From: Verrucomicrobiota bacterium
GTDB lineage: Bacteria; Verrucomicrobiota; Verrucomicrobiia; Limisphaerales; PALSA-1396
Reading direction: 5' to 3'
NCBI GenBank assembly: GCA_016200005.1
Contig: JACQFP010000063.1
Span: 1-64,000, forward strand
Length of the DNA stretch: 64,000 nt
Position 1 is the first letter of the stretch; the number at the start of each line of letters is the position of its first letter. Both the position numbers and the translations under genes were made by a program. Shown piece after piece: positions 45,030-51,562 of this stretch. The notes beneath the pieces were generated by a model, which saw only the letters and a list, made by a program, of their open reading frames with translations, was not told the origin of the DNA and ran no database searches.

Positions 45030-45048
45030 ACGGTCGTATCGAACAAGA

Positions 45049-45083
45049 AACCGGCGCAGGTTTTGCCCTGCGCCGGTTTTTTT
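45049..45083 (+). terminator. Rho-independent terminator
   Basis: A 12-bp stem AACCGGCGCAGG / CCTGCGCCGGTT (arms 45049-45060 and 45067-45078) with a short T-rich loop, followed by seven T. It closes the DUF5069 gene. Confidence 0.93.
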
Positions 45084-45216: not shown

Positions 45217-46293
45217 ATGAAAAACTTATTCTCCGCTTGGGCGGTCTGGCTGGCGCTGTTCTCGCTCTCAACCCTCAACTCTCAACTCTCAACCGTCCTC
45301 GCCCAAGGCAGCCTCACCCCGCCTGGACCACCCGGCGAGACAATGAAGTCGCTCGACCAGATTGAAGCGCGCACGAGCGTGAATTCCAACAATACACCAG
45401 GCGATGGCATTTCAGCGTTCAAGATCACAAACTCGGGCTCGTATTACCTGACTGGCAACATCACGGGCGTCAGCAACCTGCACGGCATTAGCATCACCGC
45501 GGCCCGAGTGTCGCTTGACTTGAACGGCTTTTCGCTGATTGGTGTACCTGGCTCGGTGGATGGCATCAATGCCACGAATGGCGCCGGCCTCGCCGCGGGG
45601 TTGGTGGTCCGCAACGGCACCGTTGCCGGGTGGGGTGGCAGCGGCATTAATGCTCAACCCGGCGCGCCGGGTGCCGAGTTTTCCAAACTGCGGCTGCTGA
45701 CTAATGCTCTGAACGGCTTGAAGGCCACCGGCGCGGTGATCTCCGATTGCGTCGCGGAGGGGAACACGTCCGGCGCGTTTACGAATTACGCAATCACGGT
45801 GAACGGCTCGCGCATCGTCAACTGCATCGCGAAGACCAATTACAACGGCATTCAAGGCGGCAATGGCAGCACCATTGAAGGCTGCGTGGCCAACGACAAC
45901 GCCTTCGGCTTTCTGGCCGGCGACTCAACGGTGACCCATTGCACCGCCTTCAACAACAGCGCAGATGGCATGTACCTGTTCAACAACTGTCGTGTCATCG
46001 GCAACCTCATTGATGGCAATGGGAAAGGCAAAGGCATCGAAGCGGCCGGGGGCAGTTCAGGCAACACGCTGGATGGAAACATGCTCGTCGGCAATCCGAC
46101 CGCAGGCATCCTGCTGACCAATGCGGGCGTGTTGAACAACTTTGTAATTCGCAACAGTGTTCGCGGCGCAGGAGCAAATAATTATTTGACCGGCACGGGC
46201 AACAGCTTCGGCCCGATCATCAACGTCGCGGGCACGAACGACATCTCCGGCGTCACGAATGCGAATCATCCTTGGGCAAACTTTTCGTACTGA
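45217..46293 (+). CDS. Exported right-handed beta-helix protein, paralogue 1
   Basis: 358 residues from ATG 45217 (a longer in-frame start at 45154 lies outside the signal peptide). The signal peptide contains LFSLSTLNSQLSTVLAQG, encoded by four 7-bp repeats. The mature start is SLTPPGPPGETMKSLDQIEART, a motif shared with 47970-49304 and 49542-50525. The body has NGISG/NTS-type short repeats (for example VSDCVAEGNTSG, IVNCIAKTNYNGIQGGNGS, TVTHCTAFNNSADGMYLF), typical of pectate-lyase-like helices. C-terminal motif NHPWANFSY. Carbohydrate binding or degradation is possible but unproven. Confidence 0.82.
   Translation: MKNLFSAWAVWLALFSLSTLNSQLSTVLAQGSLTPPGPPGETMKSLDQIEARTSVNSNNTPGDGISAFKITNSGSYYLTGNITGVSNLHGISITAARVSLDLNGFSLIGVPGSVDGINATNGAGLAAGLVVRNGTVAGWGGSGINAQPGAPGAEFSKLRLLTNALNGLKATGAVISDCVAEGNTSGAFTNYAITVNGSRIVNCIAKTNYNGIQGGNGSTIEGCVANDNAFGFLAGDSTVTHCTAFNNSADGMYLFNNCRVIGNLIDGNGKGKGIEAAGGSSGNTLDGNMLVGNPTAGILLTNAGVLNNFVIRNSVRGAGANNYLTGTGNSFGPIINVAGTNDISGVTNANHPWANFSY
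45267..45294 (+). repeat. Four tandem CTCAACY heptamers in a signal peptide
   Basis: CTCAACC, CTCAACT, CTCAACT, CTCAACC in perfect register, encoding L-S-T-L-N-S-Q-L-S-T of the signal peptide. The same four-unit layout occurs at 48017, 49616 and 62889. Confidence 0.85.
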
Positions 46294-46312
46294 ATCTCAA
46301 CCTTTCGCCATT

Positions 46313-47935
46313 ATGAAACTCAAAACTCAACGCCTTTTAGTTATTGGGTTATTGGGAATCCTCGCCGTCTCCGCCAATCTTTCGCCCCGCGCCGAGGCCG
46401 CTCTGCGTACCTGGACCGGTGCCGCGGCCAACGACAGCCGGTGGACCACCGCGAACAATTGGAGCAACGGCCCGCCAGTGGCCGGCGACGACTTGCTGTT
46501 CCCCGGCGGAGCCGCGCATCCCAACAACAACAACGACTATGCACCCGGTACCACGTTCAACTCGATCATCTTCTCGGGCACGAATTACTCGATAGGTGGC
46601 AGTTCCCTCGCTCTCAACGCCGGCATCATTGCGACGAACGTGGGCGCGGCAAACACGGTGAACAATGCGCTCGTTCTGAATTCCAACCAGACCTTCACGG
46701 TCAGCATCGGAAACGCGAACTTCTCCTTCTTTGGACCGATTGATACGAGTGGAAAAGACCTGACGTTCGCCGTCACCGCGCCCTCGCTGGCCCCGATCAG
46801 CGCCGGAATCACCGGCACCGGTGGATTGATTAAGACCGGCAGCGGGACAGTGTCTTTGAACGTCAGCAATTCCTTTTCCGGAACGGTTCAACTGAACGAA
46901 GGATTCATCAACATCAGCGACGGGAGCTCATTAGGCAGCACGAGCAGCAGCACCACTGTTGCGAACGGCGCGTCGCTGATTTTGCTCAACTCCATCACGG
47001 TCGCCGAACCGCTGGTGCTGTCCGGCACGCTCAGAACTGTCGGCAGCAGCACAAACACCTGGACCGGCCCGATTACACTGGCTTCGGCGGGCGCGCGCAT
47101 TGTGAGCGACACCTCCTCCCAATTAATCATCAACGCGGTCATCACCGGGACCAACGGCTTCAGCAAAGGTTCACCGGGGGCACTCACTTTGAATTCGAAC
47201 AATACTTACACCGGCACAACAGTCGTGAGCAACGGCACACTCATCGTGAACGGCAACCAACCGGATAGCGCGATCGTTTTTTATCAAGGCACCGTTGGCG
47301 GCAAAGGCGCTGTCGGAACCATCACCGCAGGCGGCAACGGAGGAAAAACGCTCAGTCCCGGCCACAACGGTCCCGGAATTCTTACGTGTAACAATTTAGC
47401 GCTGGATATTCTCACCGCGTTGCCGGTCGAACTGAATGGCACGGCTCCGGGAGCTGGCTACGATCAACTCAACGTCAACGGTACTGTGCTGTTAAACAAC
47501 CCCACTCTCTCGGTGACACTCGGCTTCACACCCGCGCCCAGCGACACTTTCGTGATCATCAACAACGACGGCACCGACGCCATCAGTGGGATCTTCGCCG
47601 GCCTGCCGCAGAACGCGCTGCTCACCAACGGCGCGACCATCTTCCGCTTTAGCTACGCGGGCGGCGACGGCGACGACGTGACCCTGACCACGACACTGGG
47701 CGCGCCATCTTCCACCCTCACATCCATTGTCAGCCTGACCAACGGCTTTGCGTTGCTGACCGGCCAGGGACAATCGAATCTGACCTACGCAGTGCAGGCC
47801 GCGACCAACCTTGCTCCGCCAACCGTGCGGACCCCACTCGGCGGCGCCGCCGCAGACGCCAGTGGTGTGTATCAGTTCACCGACACGAACGCGCCATCCT
47901 TCCCCGTGCGCTTTTATCGCTCGGTATCGCCGTGA
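46313..47935 (+). CDS. Exported autotransporter-associated beta-strand repeat protein
   Basis: 540 residues from ATG 46313. Signal peptide LLVIGLLGILAVSANLSPRAEA. Passenger-like repeats: GTGGLIKTGSGTVSLNVSNSFSG and GSPGALTLNSNNTYTGTTVVSNG, matching the autotransporter-associated beta-strand (PATR) repeats. A start motif WTGAAANDSRWTTANNWSNG is typical of this family. The C-terminus ends with the APSFPVRFYRSVSP motif, one of four RFYR ends in the window. There is no obvious translocator barrel, so attachment is probably by another route. It lies 20 bp after the first beta-helix gene. Confidence 0.85.
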   Translation: MKLKTQRLLVIGLLGILAVSANLSPRAEAALRTWTGAAANDSRWTTANNWSNGPPVAGDDLLFPGGAAHPNNNNDYAPGTTFNSIIFSGTNYSIGGSSLALNAGIIATNVGAANTVNNALVLNSNQTFTVSIGNANFSFFGPIDTSGKDLTFAVTAPSLAPISAGITGTGGLIKTGSGTVSLNVSNSFSGTVQLNEGFINISDGSSLGSTSSSTTVANGASLILLNSITVAEPLVLSGTLRTVGSSTNTWTGPITLASAGARIVSDTSSQLIINAVITGTNGFSKGSPGALTLNSNNTYTGTTVVSNGTLIVNGNQPDSAIVFYQGTVGGKGAVGTITAGGNGGKTLSPGHNGPGILTCNNLALDILTALPVELNGTAPGAGYDQLNVNGTVLLNNPTLSVTLGFTPAPSDTFVIINNDGTDAISGIFAGLPQNALLTNGATIFRFSYAGGDGDDVTLTTTLGAPSSTLTSIVSLTNGFALLTGQGQSNLTYAVQAATNLAPPTVRTPLGGAAADASGVYQFTDTNAPSFPVRFYRSVSP

Positions 47936-47969
47936 CACACTCAAACCAAAGACAACCAAGAACTATACT

Positions 47970-49304
47970 ATGAAAACGAATCGAAACACGCGGCTCGCGA
48001 CCGTGCTGCTATTGCTCTCAACCCTCAATCTTCAACCCACAACCGTGTTCGCCCAAGGCAACCTCACGCCGCCCGGCGCGCCCGCGCCCACGATGAAGTC
48101 GCTGACGCAGATCGAGCCCCGGATTGATTTGCAGAATGCCCCTGCCTCAGCGGTGACCACCACCGATCCGAACTATCACTTCATCATCACGCAGCCGGGT
48201 TCGTATTACTTGTCCGCGAACCTCGGTGTCACGAAGACGCACGGCGTCCAGATTAACGCCGCAGGTGTGAGCTTTGACTTGAAGGGTTTTGAAATTTCGC
48301 GCGCCTCCGGCTCAGGCGGAAACGGCATTGACATCCCCGCCACCAGCCACCGTGCCAGCCTGCGCGATGGTTCGATCTCGGGATTTGCCAGCGGCATTGT
48401 GTCTCTGTCGGTAAGCAACTCGTATGCGCGCGACGGAAGGCTCCTCAACCTCTCGGTGGCAAACTGCACCTCCGACGGAATTCTCAGCGGTCAGAATTGG
48501 TTGCTCGACCACTGTGTCGCGCACGACTGCTCCGGCAACAACGCGATCTCCGGTGGCAACGGCAGCACGTTGCTGGATTGCTCTGCTTCGAACAACAGCG
48601 GCAACAACGCCATCAATGCCGGCAGCGGGTGTGTGCTGACGCGCTGCAATGCTTACAAGAACACCGTGGGTTCGTATGCGATTTTCGCTTCGAGCGCCAC
48701 GCTTCATGATTGTGACGCCAGCGAAAACGCGGCGGTGGGCGGGATCTATGCGAATTCGTGTTCACTGCTGAATTGCACTGCGAACAGTAACACCCGGGCG
48801 TCGGGAGGCTCCAGTGGGATCGTCGCCTACAACTCGACGCTGATGGGATGTGATGCATCGAACAACACGAGCGGCAACCCCACGCCGAATTACTTTGCCG
48901 GCGCCGGCATCACGGCCGCGTATAGCAAGATTACCCACTGCACCTTCACCTCGAATCACGGCGACGGCATGACCGTAGATTTCAGCTCCTTCGTGAGCGA
49001 GAATCACTGCTATAACAACGGCACCGGGGGCGGCGACGGCGCTGGCATTCACGTGACCGGCCAGCGCAATCGAATCGAAGGCAACAACGTTTCCGATAAT
49101 CCGCGCGGCATTGATATTGGCGCCGCCGGCAACCTGATCATCAAAAACAGCGCGAAGTTGAACACGACCAATTACAATATCGTGGGTAGCAATCGCTACG
49201 GGCCGATCGTTGATATCACAGCAGTTGGAACGGCGGCTGTCAATGGGAACAGCAGTGCGAGCACCGTGGCGACGACCGATCCGTGGGCCAACTTTGCTTA
49301 TTAA
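47970..49304 (+). CDS. Exported right-handed beta-helix protein, paralogue 2
   Basis: 444 residues from ATG 47970. Signal peptide ATVLLLLSTLNLQPTTVFAQG, mature motif NLTPPGAPAPTMKSLTQIEPRID. Many NNSG-type parallel beta-helix coils (DHCVAHDCSGNNAISGGNGS, LDCSASNNSGNNAINAGSG, DGMTVDFSSFVSENHCYNN). C-terminal motif TTDPWANFAY. Same family as 45217-46293 and 49542-50525, which implies tandem duplication of a surface-protein gene. Function unknown; beta-helix proteins often act on polysaccharides. Confidence 0.82.
   Translation: MKTNRNTRLATVLLLLSTLNLQPTTVFAQGNLTPPGAPAPTMKSLTQIEPRIDLQNAPASAVTTTDPNYHFIITQPGSYYLSANLGVTKTHGVQINAAGVSFDLKGFEISRASGSGGNGIDIPATSHRASLRDGSISGFASGIVSLSVSNSYARDGRLLNLSVANCTSDGILSGQNWLLDHCVAHDCSGNNAISGGNGSTLLDCSASNNSGNNAINAGSGCVLTRCNAYKNTVGSYAIFASSATLHDCDASENAAVGGIYANSCSLLNCTANSNTRASGGSSGIVAYNSTLMGCDASNNTSGNPTPNYFAGAGITAAYSKITHCTFTSNHGDGMTVDFSSFVSENHCYNNGTGGGDGAGIHVTGQRNRIEGNNVSDNPRGIDIGAAGNLIIKNSAKLNTTNYNIVGSNRYGPIVDITAVGTAAVNGNSSASTVATTDPWANFAY
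48017..48044 (+). repeat. Four degenerate CTCAACC heptamers in a signal peptide
   Basis: CTCAACC, CTCAATC, TTCAACC, CACAACC. Same position in the signal peptide as the tract at 45267. Confidence 0.75.
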
Positions 49305-49323
49305 CCCTGAACCTGAATAGACA

Positions 49324-49470
49324 ATGAAATGACATCTTGTCGCGCTTCTTGCTCGCAGCATCGCATTATCAACTCTGGCCGCGACCACGATCAATGTCGC
49401 CAACAAATTCGCCTACGGCGCCAGCCTCGGTTGGATGGATTGGCGCGGCGAAAGTCGCGGGAAATTCTAG
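49324..49470 (+). pseudogene. Truncated, stop-interrupted duplicate of the GWI-repeat protein gene
   Basis: From ATG 49324 the frame reads M-K-stop-H-L-V-A-L-L-A-R-S-I-A-L-S-T-L-A-A, a signal-peptide-like stretch with TGA at codon 3, then TTINVANKFAYGASLGWMDW and a stop at 49468. The DNA from about 49378 to 49450 is nearly identical to 50636-50705 of the intact gene (TTINVANKFAYGANLGWMDW). Only the first unit survives, so it is a decayed 5' fragment. Confidence 0.8.
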
Positions 49471-49541
49471 CTTGAAGCGGACAGAGAGAATTGCCATGCT
49501 CACACCGTCATCACAAATAATCCGCTGCCAAAGGTAACTCT

Positions 49542-50525
49542 ATGAAATATACTCCTCGGTTTTTGGCGTGCGTCCCGGCGTTTAAGTCGCAGTTCGTTTT
49601 CGCTCTGCTGTTCCTCTCAACTCTCAACTCTCAATTCCTAACTGTATTTGCCCAAGGCAGCCTCACGCCGCCTGGTGCGCCCGCGCCGACGATGAAAACG
49701 CTTGATCAACTTGAACCGCGCACGCCCATTTCATCCCTGCCGTTCACCGTCACCACGCCGGGCTCGTATTACTTGACGACCAACGCATCGGTGACCGACA
49801 GCGCCATTCATATCCAAGCCGGCAACGTGACTTTGGATATGAACGGCTTCACCCTTACAGGCAACGGGAGCGTGACCAAGTACGGCGTTATCATTGATCC
49901 AGCCAACCAGATAACGAACGTCACGATCCGAAATGGCAAGTTCGTAAACTTTGGCGGCGCGGTAGCAATGGGTGCCAACGGAGCGGACAGCCTGCTGGTC
50001 GAAGACATCCAGATGCACACCGGCACGCGCGCGGGCGTGTGGCTGAGTTCAAATTGCCAGGGCGCGGTCATTCGCAACAATTTGTTCGTCGAGTGCATGC
50101 TGCCGATTTCGGTCAGCGCGTTTGCCGGTCAAACCATCGGCGGCGTGACCATTGCCAACAACCGGATTTCAGGAGGCGGCAGCACCGGCATTGATGTTAA
50201 CGCCCAAACCGGTGGAACCGTCCGGGATATTTCCGTGCTGAACAATCAGGTGGCCAACACCGGGGGCACATCAATCGTTATTTCCTCCACTGATCCCGGC
50301 GGAGTGCAGCGGTTATTGATTGATTCGAACCATTGCACGAGAAACGCATTCATCGGCCTCATCGTCCCCGCCAATGCCAAGGCCACGGTCATCCGCAATG
50401 TTTTTACCGGCTGCACATTGAGCGTCAGCACCACGGGAAACACGGTCGGGCCGACCATCACCACCATAGGCACGCTCGGCACAACCGGCGCAGACATCAG
50501 CCCGTGGGCAAACTTTCAAAACTAA
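49542..50525 (+). CDS. Exported right-handed beta-helix protein, paralogue 3
   Basis: 327 residues from ATG 49542. Signal peptide LLFLSTLNSQFLTVFAQG, mature motif SLTPPGAPAPTMKTLDQLEPRT, then parallel beta-helix coils (GVTIANNRISGGGSTGIDV, RDISVLNNQVANTGGTSIV, RLLIDSNHCTRNAFIGLIV). C-terminal motif ISPWANFQN. It shares the N- and C-terminal signatures with the other two helix proteins but has a different, shorter body, so the ends are more conserved than the middle. Confidence 0.82.
   Translation: MKYTPRFLACVPAFKSQFVFALLFLSTLNSQFLTVFAQGSLTPPGAPAPTMKTLDQLEPRTPISSLPFTVTTPGSYYLTTNASVTDSAIHIQAGNVTLDMNGFTLTGNGSVTKYGVIIDPANQITNVTIRNGKFVNFGGAVAMGANGADSLLVEDIQMHTGTRAGVWLSSNCQGAVIRNNLFVECMLPISVSAFAGQTIGGVTIANNRISGGGSTGIDVNAQTGGTVRDISVLNNQVANTGGTSIVISSTDPGGVQRLLIDSNHCTRNAFIGLIVPANAKATVIRNVFTGCTLSVSTTGNTVGPTITTIGTLGTTGADISPWANFQN
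49616..49643 (+). repeat. Four CTCAACT-type heptamers in a signal peptide
   Basis: CTCAACT, CTCAACT, CTCAATT, CCTAACT. Same location in the signal peptide as at 45267 and 48017. Confidence 0.8.
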
Positions 50526-50545
50526 GGCGAACGCTGAGTCGAATT

Positions 50546-51445
50546 ATGAACACTCCGAAAGCAGCACCGTTTACCACAATCAAAACTCTCGCTCCTCTGG
50601 TCACGCTGGCGGCGTTAATTGCCTCTGCATCGGCCGCGACCACGATCAATGTCGCCAACAAATTCGCTTACGGCGCGAACCTCGGCTGGATGGATTGGCG
50701 AGGGGACACCAACAGTGGCGCCGTCATCGGCGAATACGTTTGCTCCGGCTTCATCTACGCCGCCAATGTCGGCTGGATCAATCTCGGCGGCGGCACGCCC
50801 ACCAACGGCATCCAGTATCAGAATCTTTCCGCCAGCGATTTTGGCGTGAACCACGACGGTCTAGGCAATCTGCGCGGTTACGCCTATGGCGCAAACATCG
50901 GCTGGATCAATTTTGAGGCGAACAGCGCGCCGAAAGTTGATCTCAAGACCGGCAAGTTGAGTGGGTATGTTTACGGCGCGAACGTGGGCTGGATCAGCTT
51001 GAGCAACGCGTTCGCCTTCGTTCAAACGGATACGATTGCGCCTGGAACTGACAGTGACGGTGACGGCATTGCCGACGCGTACGAATACACCTATTTCGGC
51101 AACCTGACGACGATGAACGCCGTCAGTGATTACGATGGCGACGGAGTTTCGGACAGGAACGAATACTTGGCGGGCACGAACCCGAACGATCTTTCTGATT
51201 ACCTGGCCATTACCGCCATCGCCGCCAACGCCAGTGGATCACCGACCAGCCTCACCTGGAAGAGCGCGTTGTCGCGCTGCTACTACATCCAGGAGCGGCT
51301 GAACTTGAACATTGCCTCACCGTGGTTCGACAGCGGTCTTGGTCTGATCAGCCCTGACGGCGTCTCGACCACCCGCAACATCTTCGATACAAACGCGCCG
51401 ATGCGGTTCTATCGCATTCAAGCCGTCAAGCCGTTGTCGCCCTGA
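50546..51445 (+). CDS. Exported protein with four YGANxGWI repeats, a DxDxDG motif and an RFYR end
   Basis: 299 residues from ATG 50546. Signal peptide LVTLAALIASASA. Four short repeats follow: FAYGANLGWMDW, IYAANVGWINLG, YAYGANIGWINFE and VYGANVGWISLS. Then DSDGDGIADAYEY and YDGDGVSDRNEYLAGTNP, which fit dockerin/thrombospondin-type-3 calcium-binding loops, and a C-terminal beta domain ending APMRFYRIQAVKPLSP. Extracellular, calcium binding is inferred; function unknown. A decayed copy lies at 49324-49470, upstream of the third beta-helix gene. Confidence 0.8.
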   Translation: MNTPKAAPFTTIKTLAPLVTLAALIASASAATTINVANKFAYGANLGWMDWRGDTNSGAVIGEYVCSGFIYAANVGWINLGGGTPTNGIQYQNLSASDFGVNHDGLGNLRGYAYGANIGWINFEANSAPKVDLKTGKLSGYVYGANVGWISLSNAFAFVQTDTIAPGTDSDGDGIADAYEYTYFGNLTTMNAVSDYDGDGVSDRNEYLAGTNPNDLSDYLAITAIAANASGSPTSLTWKSALSRCYYIQERLNLNIASPWFDSGLGLISPDGVSTTRNIFDTNAPMRFYRIQAVKPLSP

Positions 51446-51447
51446 GC

Positions 51448-51533
51448 GCGAGTTGGAGTTCAAGCTTCAGCTTGTTCCGCGCGACGCAGTGGTCCTGGTT
51501 CCAAAGCAGGCTAAAGCCTGGACTCCAACTCGC
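51448..51533. repeat. Palindromic repeat between the GWI-repeat gene and acs
   Basis: GCGAGTTGGAGT at 51448-51459 is the perfect reverse complement of ACTCCAACTCGC at 51522-51533, with extended partial pairing inside (TCAAGCTTCAGCTTG against CAGGCTAAAGCCTGG). It is a longer imperfect palindrome of about 86 bp that may also act as a transcription end for the upstream gene. Confidence 0.7.
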
Positions 51534-51562
51534 TCATTGACGCTGGGCCGCGCCTCCCTAAA

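Follow-up and report, generated by a model that had tools for sequence, protein, structure and literature searches.

Why should three secreted proteins encoded close together keep both of their ends alike when the bodies between those ends differ? This question is raised by positions 45217–50525 of the window, the 64,000-nucleotide stretch of a Verrucomicrobiota bacterium analysed here (contig JACQFP010000063.1, forward strand). A first-pass annotation had described three exported right-handed beta-helix paralogues with a conserved LTPPGxP motif after the signal peptide and PWANF at the C-terminus, and had proposed that both ends are processing or anchoring motifs read by a common machinery. 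The analysis favours, with moderate confidence, a two-part exported system in which the three proteins, hereafter the clients, contribute interchangeable bodies bearing a short N-terminal tag, and a repeat protein, the ANLGWI protein, holds or assembles them outside the cytoplasm. The partner gene starts at 50546, 20 bases past the end of the first-annotated interval (50525), and the tagged cluster with its partner occupies 45217–51445. Its main features are as follows.

45217..46293, + strand: client 1, signal peptide, tag and right-handed beta-helix, ending in PWANFSY (PF13229, E 1e-8; AlphaFold2 predicted local distance difference test (pLDDT) 90.8)
45301..45372, + strand: tag of client 1, AQGSLTPPGPPGETMKSLDQIEAR, the first residues behind the signal peptide (alignment, tag profile)
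46270..46290, + strand: C-terminal cap PWANFSY of client 1 (open reading frame (ORF), C-terminal alignment)
47970..49304, + strand: client 2, signal peptide, tag and beta-helix, ending in PWANFAY (TIGR03804)
48051..48122, + strand: tag of client 2, AQGNLTPPGAPAPTMKSLTQIEPR (alignment, tag profile)
49281..49301, + strand: C-terminal cap PWANFAY of client 2 (ORF, C-terminal alignment)
49542..50525, + strand: client 3, signal peptide, tag and beta-helix, ending in PWANFQN (PF13229, E 4e-10; PF05048, E 5e-7)
49650..49721, + strand: tag of client 3, AQGSLTPPGAPAPTMKTLDQLEPR (alignment, tag profile)
50502..50522, + strand: C-terminal cap PWANFQN of client 3 (ORF, C-terminal alignment)
50546..51445, + strand: ANLGWI partner, signal peptide, four GY.Y.AN.GWI-type repeats (50636–51025), TSP3-type DSDGDG stretch and Fn3-like C-terminal domain, ending in FYRIQAVKPLSP (start codon read)

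Three clients with common ends

ORFs, alignments and end profiles confirm the three exported beta-helix paralogues with conserved ends and differing middles. The clients share the end of the signal peptide, a 24-residue block, the opening coil of the beta-helix and the final ~50 residues, and their middles diverge in length and sequence. The block, which constitutes the tag, spans ~24 residues of the form QGSLTPPGxPxPTMKxLxQIEPR, a proline-rich lead that passes into the beginning of a helix. In the alignment of the three clients, Q, G, L, T, P, P, G, P, T, M, K, L, Q, E and R are invariant within the first 24 residues. Conservation runs beyond this motif into the first beta-helix coil (PGSYYLT.N..VtlDlnGF). 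At the other end, the common block reads G..GP...GT...PWANF, with PWANF conserved in all three clients near the C-terminus, two residues short of it rather than at it (PWANFSY, PWANFAY, PWANFQN). A profile of the N-terminal ~85 residues matches exactly three ORFs in the 6.54 Mb genome, those of the window, and the C-terminal profile likewise matches these three only. With E-values of 1e-39 (N-terminal) and 1e-21 (C-terminal) or better, the shared ends are not due to chance.

A portable tag directly behind the signal peptide

Analysis beyond the window reveals that the tag is portable and has a constant position, immediately after the signal peptide. The motif alone was represented by a 24-residue profile (A12; threshold E 1e-4) whose seeds include non-beta-helix cases adjacent to ANLGWI genes. 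Rather than being confined to one cluster or lying at random positions, the N-terminal motif occurs across Verrucomicrobiota and in some Planctomycetota, consistently behind a signal peptide, with a hydrophobic signal-peptide core just upstream of the tag in 191 of 196 distinct tagged ORFs. The beta-helix is the body of most tagged proteins, and 19 distinct tagged proteins of other kinds were collected. At least four non-homologous body types carry the tag, all directly behind the signal peptide. The tagged proteins include FGE-sulfatase bodies (PF03781; L189, L220 and L250 at E 1e-48 or better, and also L248), Lcl_C bodies (PF07603; L184, L190, L219 and L241), repeat proteins without a Pfam match (L148, L165, L183 and L215) and a coiled coil (L178). 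In many of them the tag continues into a helix, as judged from sequence. A lipobox-like pattern is present in 1 of the 196 tagged ORFs and in none of the three window clients, a transmembrane-like stretch lies within the last 40 residues of 2 of the 196, and the C-termini of the window clients are polar. The literature searched makes no mention of LTPPGAP, PTMKTL, PWANF or GWI repeats, its sole match being unrelated, and neither for the tag nor for the repeat domain of the ANLGWI protein was a describing family, solved fold or paper found.

The beta-helix body and its PWANF cap

The AlphaFold2 model of mature client 1 is a right-handed beta-helix (37 sequences, pLDDT 90.8, predicted template modelling score 0.87), mostly above pLDDT 90 within the beta-helix itself. 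Clients 1 and 3 pass PF13229, client 3 also passes PF05048, and client 2 passes TIGR03804 only, at 19.8 against a cut-off of 19.45. No C-terminal beta-barrel follows the beta-helix in the client 1 model, where the beta-helix extends to the last residues; a loose linker (pLDDT 54) leads there into an ordered PWANFSY segment with a strand (block mean 82).

The closest solved chains to this model are AlgE6/AlgE4 mannuronan epimerase modules (Z 30, ~275 residues, 17% identity; for 5lw3, Z 30.3 and 2.5 A over 277 residues), and the client body has a sequence-profile match to 2pyg at E 1e-9. The AlgE A-module, NosD and PL6 lyases share the fold of the client body (Pfam Beta_helix and NosD), whereas the clients differ from AlgE in their N-terminus, in their PWANF-type closing segment and in lacking DPH, the catalytic motif of AlgE-type mannuronan C5-epimerases. 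The structural matches lend some weight to a polysaccharide-acting system, in which the clients would be AlgE-like epimerase or lyase beta-helices, the ANLGWI protein would assist them by binding carbohydrate, and the tag would be an incidental product of common descent. However, DPH occurs in none of the 196 distinct tagged ORFs, the beta-helix body has no invariant acidic or aromatic residue set, and FGE, Lcl_C and other bodies are likewise headed by the tag; a common beta-helix fold is moreover no proof of function, and this explanation is improbable.

PWANF itself follows the beta-helix rather than the tag. In L062, L085, L093, L095 and L128, NPWANF or SAWANF is internal and is followed by 137–458 residues of Cys-rich, STIG1-like repeats. 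A sister group of exported, untagged beta-helices (GRIEISQxxMPxTIxxPGSYVLTEN) still has a PWANF-type end; its members stand in tandem arrays at L158, L159, L160, L161, L164 and L194. Among 148 distinct proteins with the beta-helix N-domain, 63 end in PWANF and 18 in KYNMP, and many variants occur (PNANF, PHANY, NVNSF, FLGTP). Because PWANF can be internal, is found on untagged beta-helices and is replaced on tagged proteins, it belongs to the beta-helix end and not to sorting: it is a cap that closes the last beta-helix turn. A sorting or cleavage signal, also considered for PWANF, is ruled out by these same three observations.

This outcome divides the first proposal. The N-terminal motif, with its fixed place, its non-homologous bodies and its one exported partner, fits a motif read by common machinery, and PWANF, as a body cap, does not. 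PWANF is also not tied to LTPPGxP: it is found on untagged beta-helices too, and tagged ones may end in KYNMP, NVNSF or FLGTP. The full version, with LTPPGxP and PWANF both serving as processing or anchoring signals for a common secretion machinery, can appeal to the conservation of both ends and to the position of PWANF within the last few residues among PWANF-type proteins. It is scarcely credible in view of the internal and untagged occurrences, the KYNMP-type ends, the modelling of PWANF as an ordered, strand-bearing segment behind a loose linker, and the lack of a transmembrane helix or basic tail.

Co-distribution of the tag and the ANLGWI gene

A profile of the beta-helix N-domain matches 18 of 97 genomes of the order, with 1–4 copies each, often in tandem; the longest tandem arrays reach ~9 copies (L133). 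A contig scan with a single full-length protein gave nothing, an alignment of close N-domains being needed. The scan of named genomes yielded 78 loci, mostly in Verrucomicrobiota (Limisphaerales/Pedosphaera, Kiritimatiellia and Chthoniobacterales), the remainder being two Phycisphaerales and metagenome-assembled genomes labelled Acidobacteria and Proteobacteria.

Gene clustering over 99 non-redundant loci identifies the ANLGWI gene as the sole strongly recurrent family other than the beta-helices. Full ANLGWI is present in 16 of the 97 order genomes, all of them within the 18 that have tagged beta-helices (hypergeometric 2e-16). Among 387 genomes of the phylum, 41 have ANLGWI, 37 the beta-helix N-domain and 31 both; with the 24-residue profile, the tag is found in 36 and together with ANLGWI in 32 (3e-34). 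These P values are too small, kin genomes having been counted as independent; the agreement between tag and ANLGWI spans families, classes and two phyla. ANLGWI is tracked better by the tag than by the beta-helix N-domain (32/36 versus 31/37), and the two can be dissociated. Specifically, G302 has a beta-helix and PWANF without the tag and has no ANLGWI, and G273, G347, G384 and G318 have the tag without a beta-helix and do have ANLGWI. In some ANLGWI genomes that lack the beta-helix N-domain, the ANLGWI gene adjoins a gene whose product has this N-terminal motif in front of a different body.

Adjacency, supply in trans and matched subtypes

Of 93 client loci, 56 contain the ANLGWI gene, which in 41 cases comes immediately after the client in the same orientation, at a median gap of 21 bp. 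Viewed from the partner, a tagged gene lies on the same strand and no more than 1.5 kb away for 27 of the 45 ANLGWI genes in the phylum sample; its product is a beta-helix protein in 19 cases and has another body in 8. No secretion or transport genes occur among the conserved neighbours of client loci, the co-occurrence that the first-pass annotation had proposed to check; what recurs is an exported protein built of repeats, and it does not belong to any recognised secretion machinery. The second most recurrent neighbour family, an exported DUF4412 protein, stands beside clients with KYNMP-type ends at 11 loci (L072, L082, L094, L099, L102, L104, L107, L117, L125, L126 and L069) and is possibly a second, body-specific partner.

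Where the two genes are apart, the partner appears to be supplied in trans. ANLGWI is found elsewhere in 26 of 28 genomes that were picked because they have a tagged gene, in most cases with no ANLGWI close to it, against a background of 41/387 (Fisher 6e-21). The 26 include two Planctomycetota, and also G492, a weak match; of the exceptions, L088 has no more than a truncated client. G353 encodes 12 tagged proteins, and its one ANLGWI gene lies on a different contig. Adjacency is commoner in genomes with one tagged gene (~9/12) than in those with five or more (2/5), small numbers in both cases. The ANLGWI gene is usually single per genome and mostly serves one to a dozen tagged proteins.

Furthermore, tag and partner match in subtype. 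All six MHTL-type tags beside an ANLGWI gene adjoin its GENxGW subtype, and 73 of 76 others adjoin the GANxGW subtype (Fisher 2e-7). Both pairs are present in G164, G288 and G469, and descent alone therefore does not explain the match. Body type shifts together with tag type, which keeps some room for a body-specific pairing.

These data bear directly on the chief rival, which takes the tag as the clients' own assembly element, a beta-helix cap or coiled-coil start that serves homo-oligomerisation, with the ANLGWI protein co-expressed and not touching it. In L087, L124, L163, L183, L198, L203 and L215, the tag indeed runs into long helical or heptad-like stretches before the body, and the client 1 model places a short helix at residues 18–21, just ahead of the first strand. 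By itself, however, such an element leaves unexplained a second protein shared by quite different bodies, also in trans, as well as the subtype match; this account is unlikely.

The window also records part of the history of the pair.

49377..49451, + strand: remnant of a second ANLGWI gene, 75 bases (92% identity to 50632–50706)

These 75 bases, which match the beginning of the mature ANLGWI coding region at 92% identity, lie in the 237 bases that separate client 2 from client 3 and are what is left of a decayed second ANLGWI gene. Such a decayed copy implies that client and partner were once duplicated as a unit and that one partner was lost. Tandem duplication of the unit, together with the patchy distribution (37/387 genomes), would suit operon hitch-hiking, in which client and ANLGWI genes form one mobile cassette without functional coupling. 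This is very improbable, given that ANLGWI is kept when clients sit on other contigs or when the client body is exchanged, and that separate genomic locations with co-distribution are largely what is seen. No viral, phage or plasmid relatives were found either, none among IMG/VR contigs or phage records, prophage context not having been examined systematically.

Architecture of the ANLGWI protein

No Pfam, NCBIfam or solved-structure match was found for the GY.Y.AN.GWI repeat domain (mature residues 1–131). The best of five models of the ANLGWI protein reaches pLDDT 90.2, and three of the five score 64–72. The fold search with the model returned Fn3-like matches to the C-terminal part only (Z ~7); for the repeat domain, modelled only as part of the whole protein, the lack of a fold match is weak evidence. 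A TSP3 stretch is present in the C-terminal half of 23 of 31 ANLGWI members, and no protease domain is found in the window protein. The C-terminal half (TSP3/Fn3-like) is widespread, occurring in 91 of the 97 order genomes, and resembles bacterial exported TSP3-repeat/Fn3 proteins (PF18884), from which the ANLGWI protein differs in its repeat domain. The TSP3 stretch with a C-terminal 'FYRVRAxRPL' module is borne by very many exported proteins, some of more than 2000 residues, and this module may itself be a sorting or anchoring end. The repeat domain also occurs within larger proteins, with Ig domains and a subtilase (L184:4969-9489), with Calx-beta/SdrD_B/GEVED (L216:5249-9841) and with Laminin_G_3 (L213:4218-5861).

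A docking model for tagged clients

Each client comprises a signal peptide, the ~24-residue tag and an interchangeable body, here a right-handed beta-helix closed by PWANF. Sec export and signal peptidase cleavage would leave the tag at the mature N-terminus. Building on the genetic linkage of tag and ANLGWI, physical docking is envisaged, whereby the GWI repeats, rich in aromatic residues, would bind the proline-rich tag, so that the ANLGWI protein would assemble or display the clients in an extracytoplasmic assembly. In the client 1 model, residues 1–20 have a pLDDT of only 64–67, as would be compatible with a segment that needs a partner. Beta-helix, FGE, Lcl_C and repeat bodies belong to classes in which ligand binding or modification is frequent. 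Such bodies would fit the presentation of exchangeable heads known from phage tailspikes, an analogy that does not make the clients members of the tailspike family.

Several observations weigh against this model. The lower confidence of the first 20 residues may also mean plain flexibility, and the co-distribution statistics take related genomes as independent. Nine ANLGWI genomes have no detected tag (some at contig edges, some diverged), and four tagged genomes have no ANLGWI. Three K-tag clients lie beside the GENxGW subtype. Neither client nor ANLGWI protein has an evident membrane anchor.

Surroundings of the cluster

Two further features belong to the local context.

45045..45082, + strand: strong terminator-like hairpin, 16-pair stem and T run, bounding the cluster upstream and setting it apart from the preceding gene
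46313..47935, + strand: exported protein with autotransporter-associated beta-strand repeats (PATR / TIGR02601), without the tag (family match)

All genes in 45217–51445 are co-oriented, and their spacing suggests an operon. The unrelated PATR protein separates clients 1 and 2; it has autotransporter-type repeats and no evident barrel, and only two related loci have relatives of it. Across related loci, neither this protein nor the flanking formate dehydrogenase/fdhD, acetyl-CoA synthetase and DUF5069-like genes are conserved. Directly 3' of the ANLGWI gene, at 51445–51545, lies an imperfect palindrome, GAGTTGGAGTTCAAGCTT...GGACTCCAACTC, which resembles a repetitive extragenic palindrome or miniature inverted-repeat transposable element (REP/MITE-like) and has 57 dispersed matches in the same genome. 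Elsewhere in this genome, two exported 'FTYQGRL' proteins without the tag (G000:C22:324566 and 326636; L256 and L257) have a signal peptide, LSTLNSQLSTLFAQG, almost identical to that of the three window clients; this low-complexity signal peptide is itself reused on unrelated proteins.

Relation to known systems and significance

The sorting tags LPXTG, PEP-CTERM and GlyGly-CTERM, which were found by co-distribution, are C-terminal and tied to a membrane enzyme. GlyGly-CTERM is reported to be a short homology region on otherwise unrelated exported proteins, up to ~13 per genome, with almost perfect co-distribution with one partner gene, rhombosortase, which adjoins its clients where these are few and often lies far from them where they are many (PMC3237569). 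The present system resembles GlyGly-CTERM/rhombosortase, PEP-CTERM/exosortase and LPXTG/sortase in having a tag common to non-homologous bodies and near-perfect co-distribution (32/36, 26/28 and 16/18), and resembles the first also in that adjacency falls as tagged genes increase (PMC3237569). In contrast, the signals of those systems lie at the C-terminus and comprise a transmembrane helix and a basic tail, whereas the tag here would lie at the mature N-terminus and has no membrane helix; their partners are membrane proteases or transpeptidases, whereas ANLGWI is a soluble-looking exported repeat protein. Phage tailspikes and receptor-binding proteins likewise combine a conserved N-terminal anchor with swappable bodies, among which the right-handed beta-helix is common (PMC10408124). 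Unlike them, the clients appear to be encoded by chromosomal genes of free-living bacteria and have signal peptides, and their N-terminal part is ~24 residues long, not a folded anchor domain.

More broadly, and tentatively, these data may point to a docking system outside the cytoplasm, previously undescribed and present in Verrucomicrobiota and in some Planctomycetota, in which a PPGxPxPTMKTLxQI tag on interchangeable binding or enzymatic bodies would be recognised by a GWI-repeat scaffold, with matched subtypes able to coexist in one cell. If this holds, many unrelated secreted proteins would be brought together by a different route, one that relies on a portable tag at the mature N-terminus and on an exported, soluble-looking repeat protein. 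It would give a testable function to two protein groups of environmental bacteria that are annotated only as 'beta-helix' or 'hypothetical'. Annotation could then bring FGE, Lcl_C, beta-helix and repeat proteins under a single heading as its clients, and attempts at surface or matrix display could use the tag as a handle.

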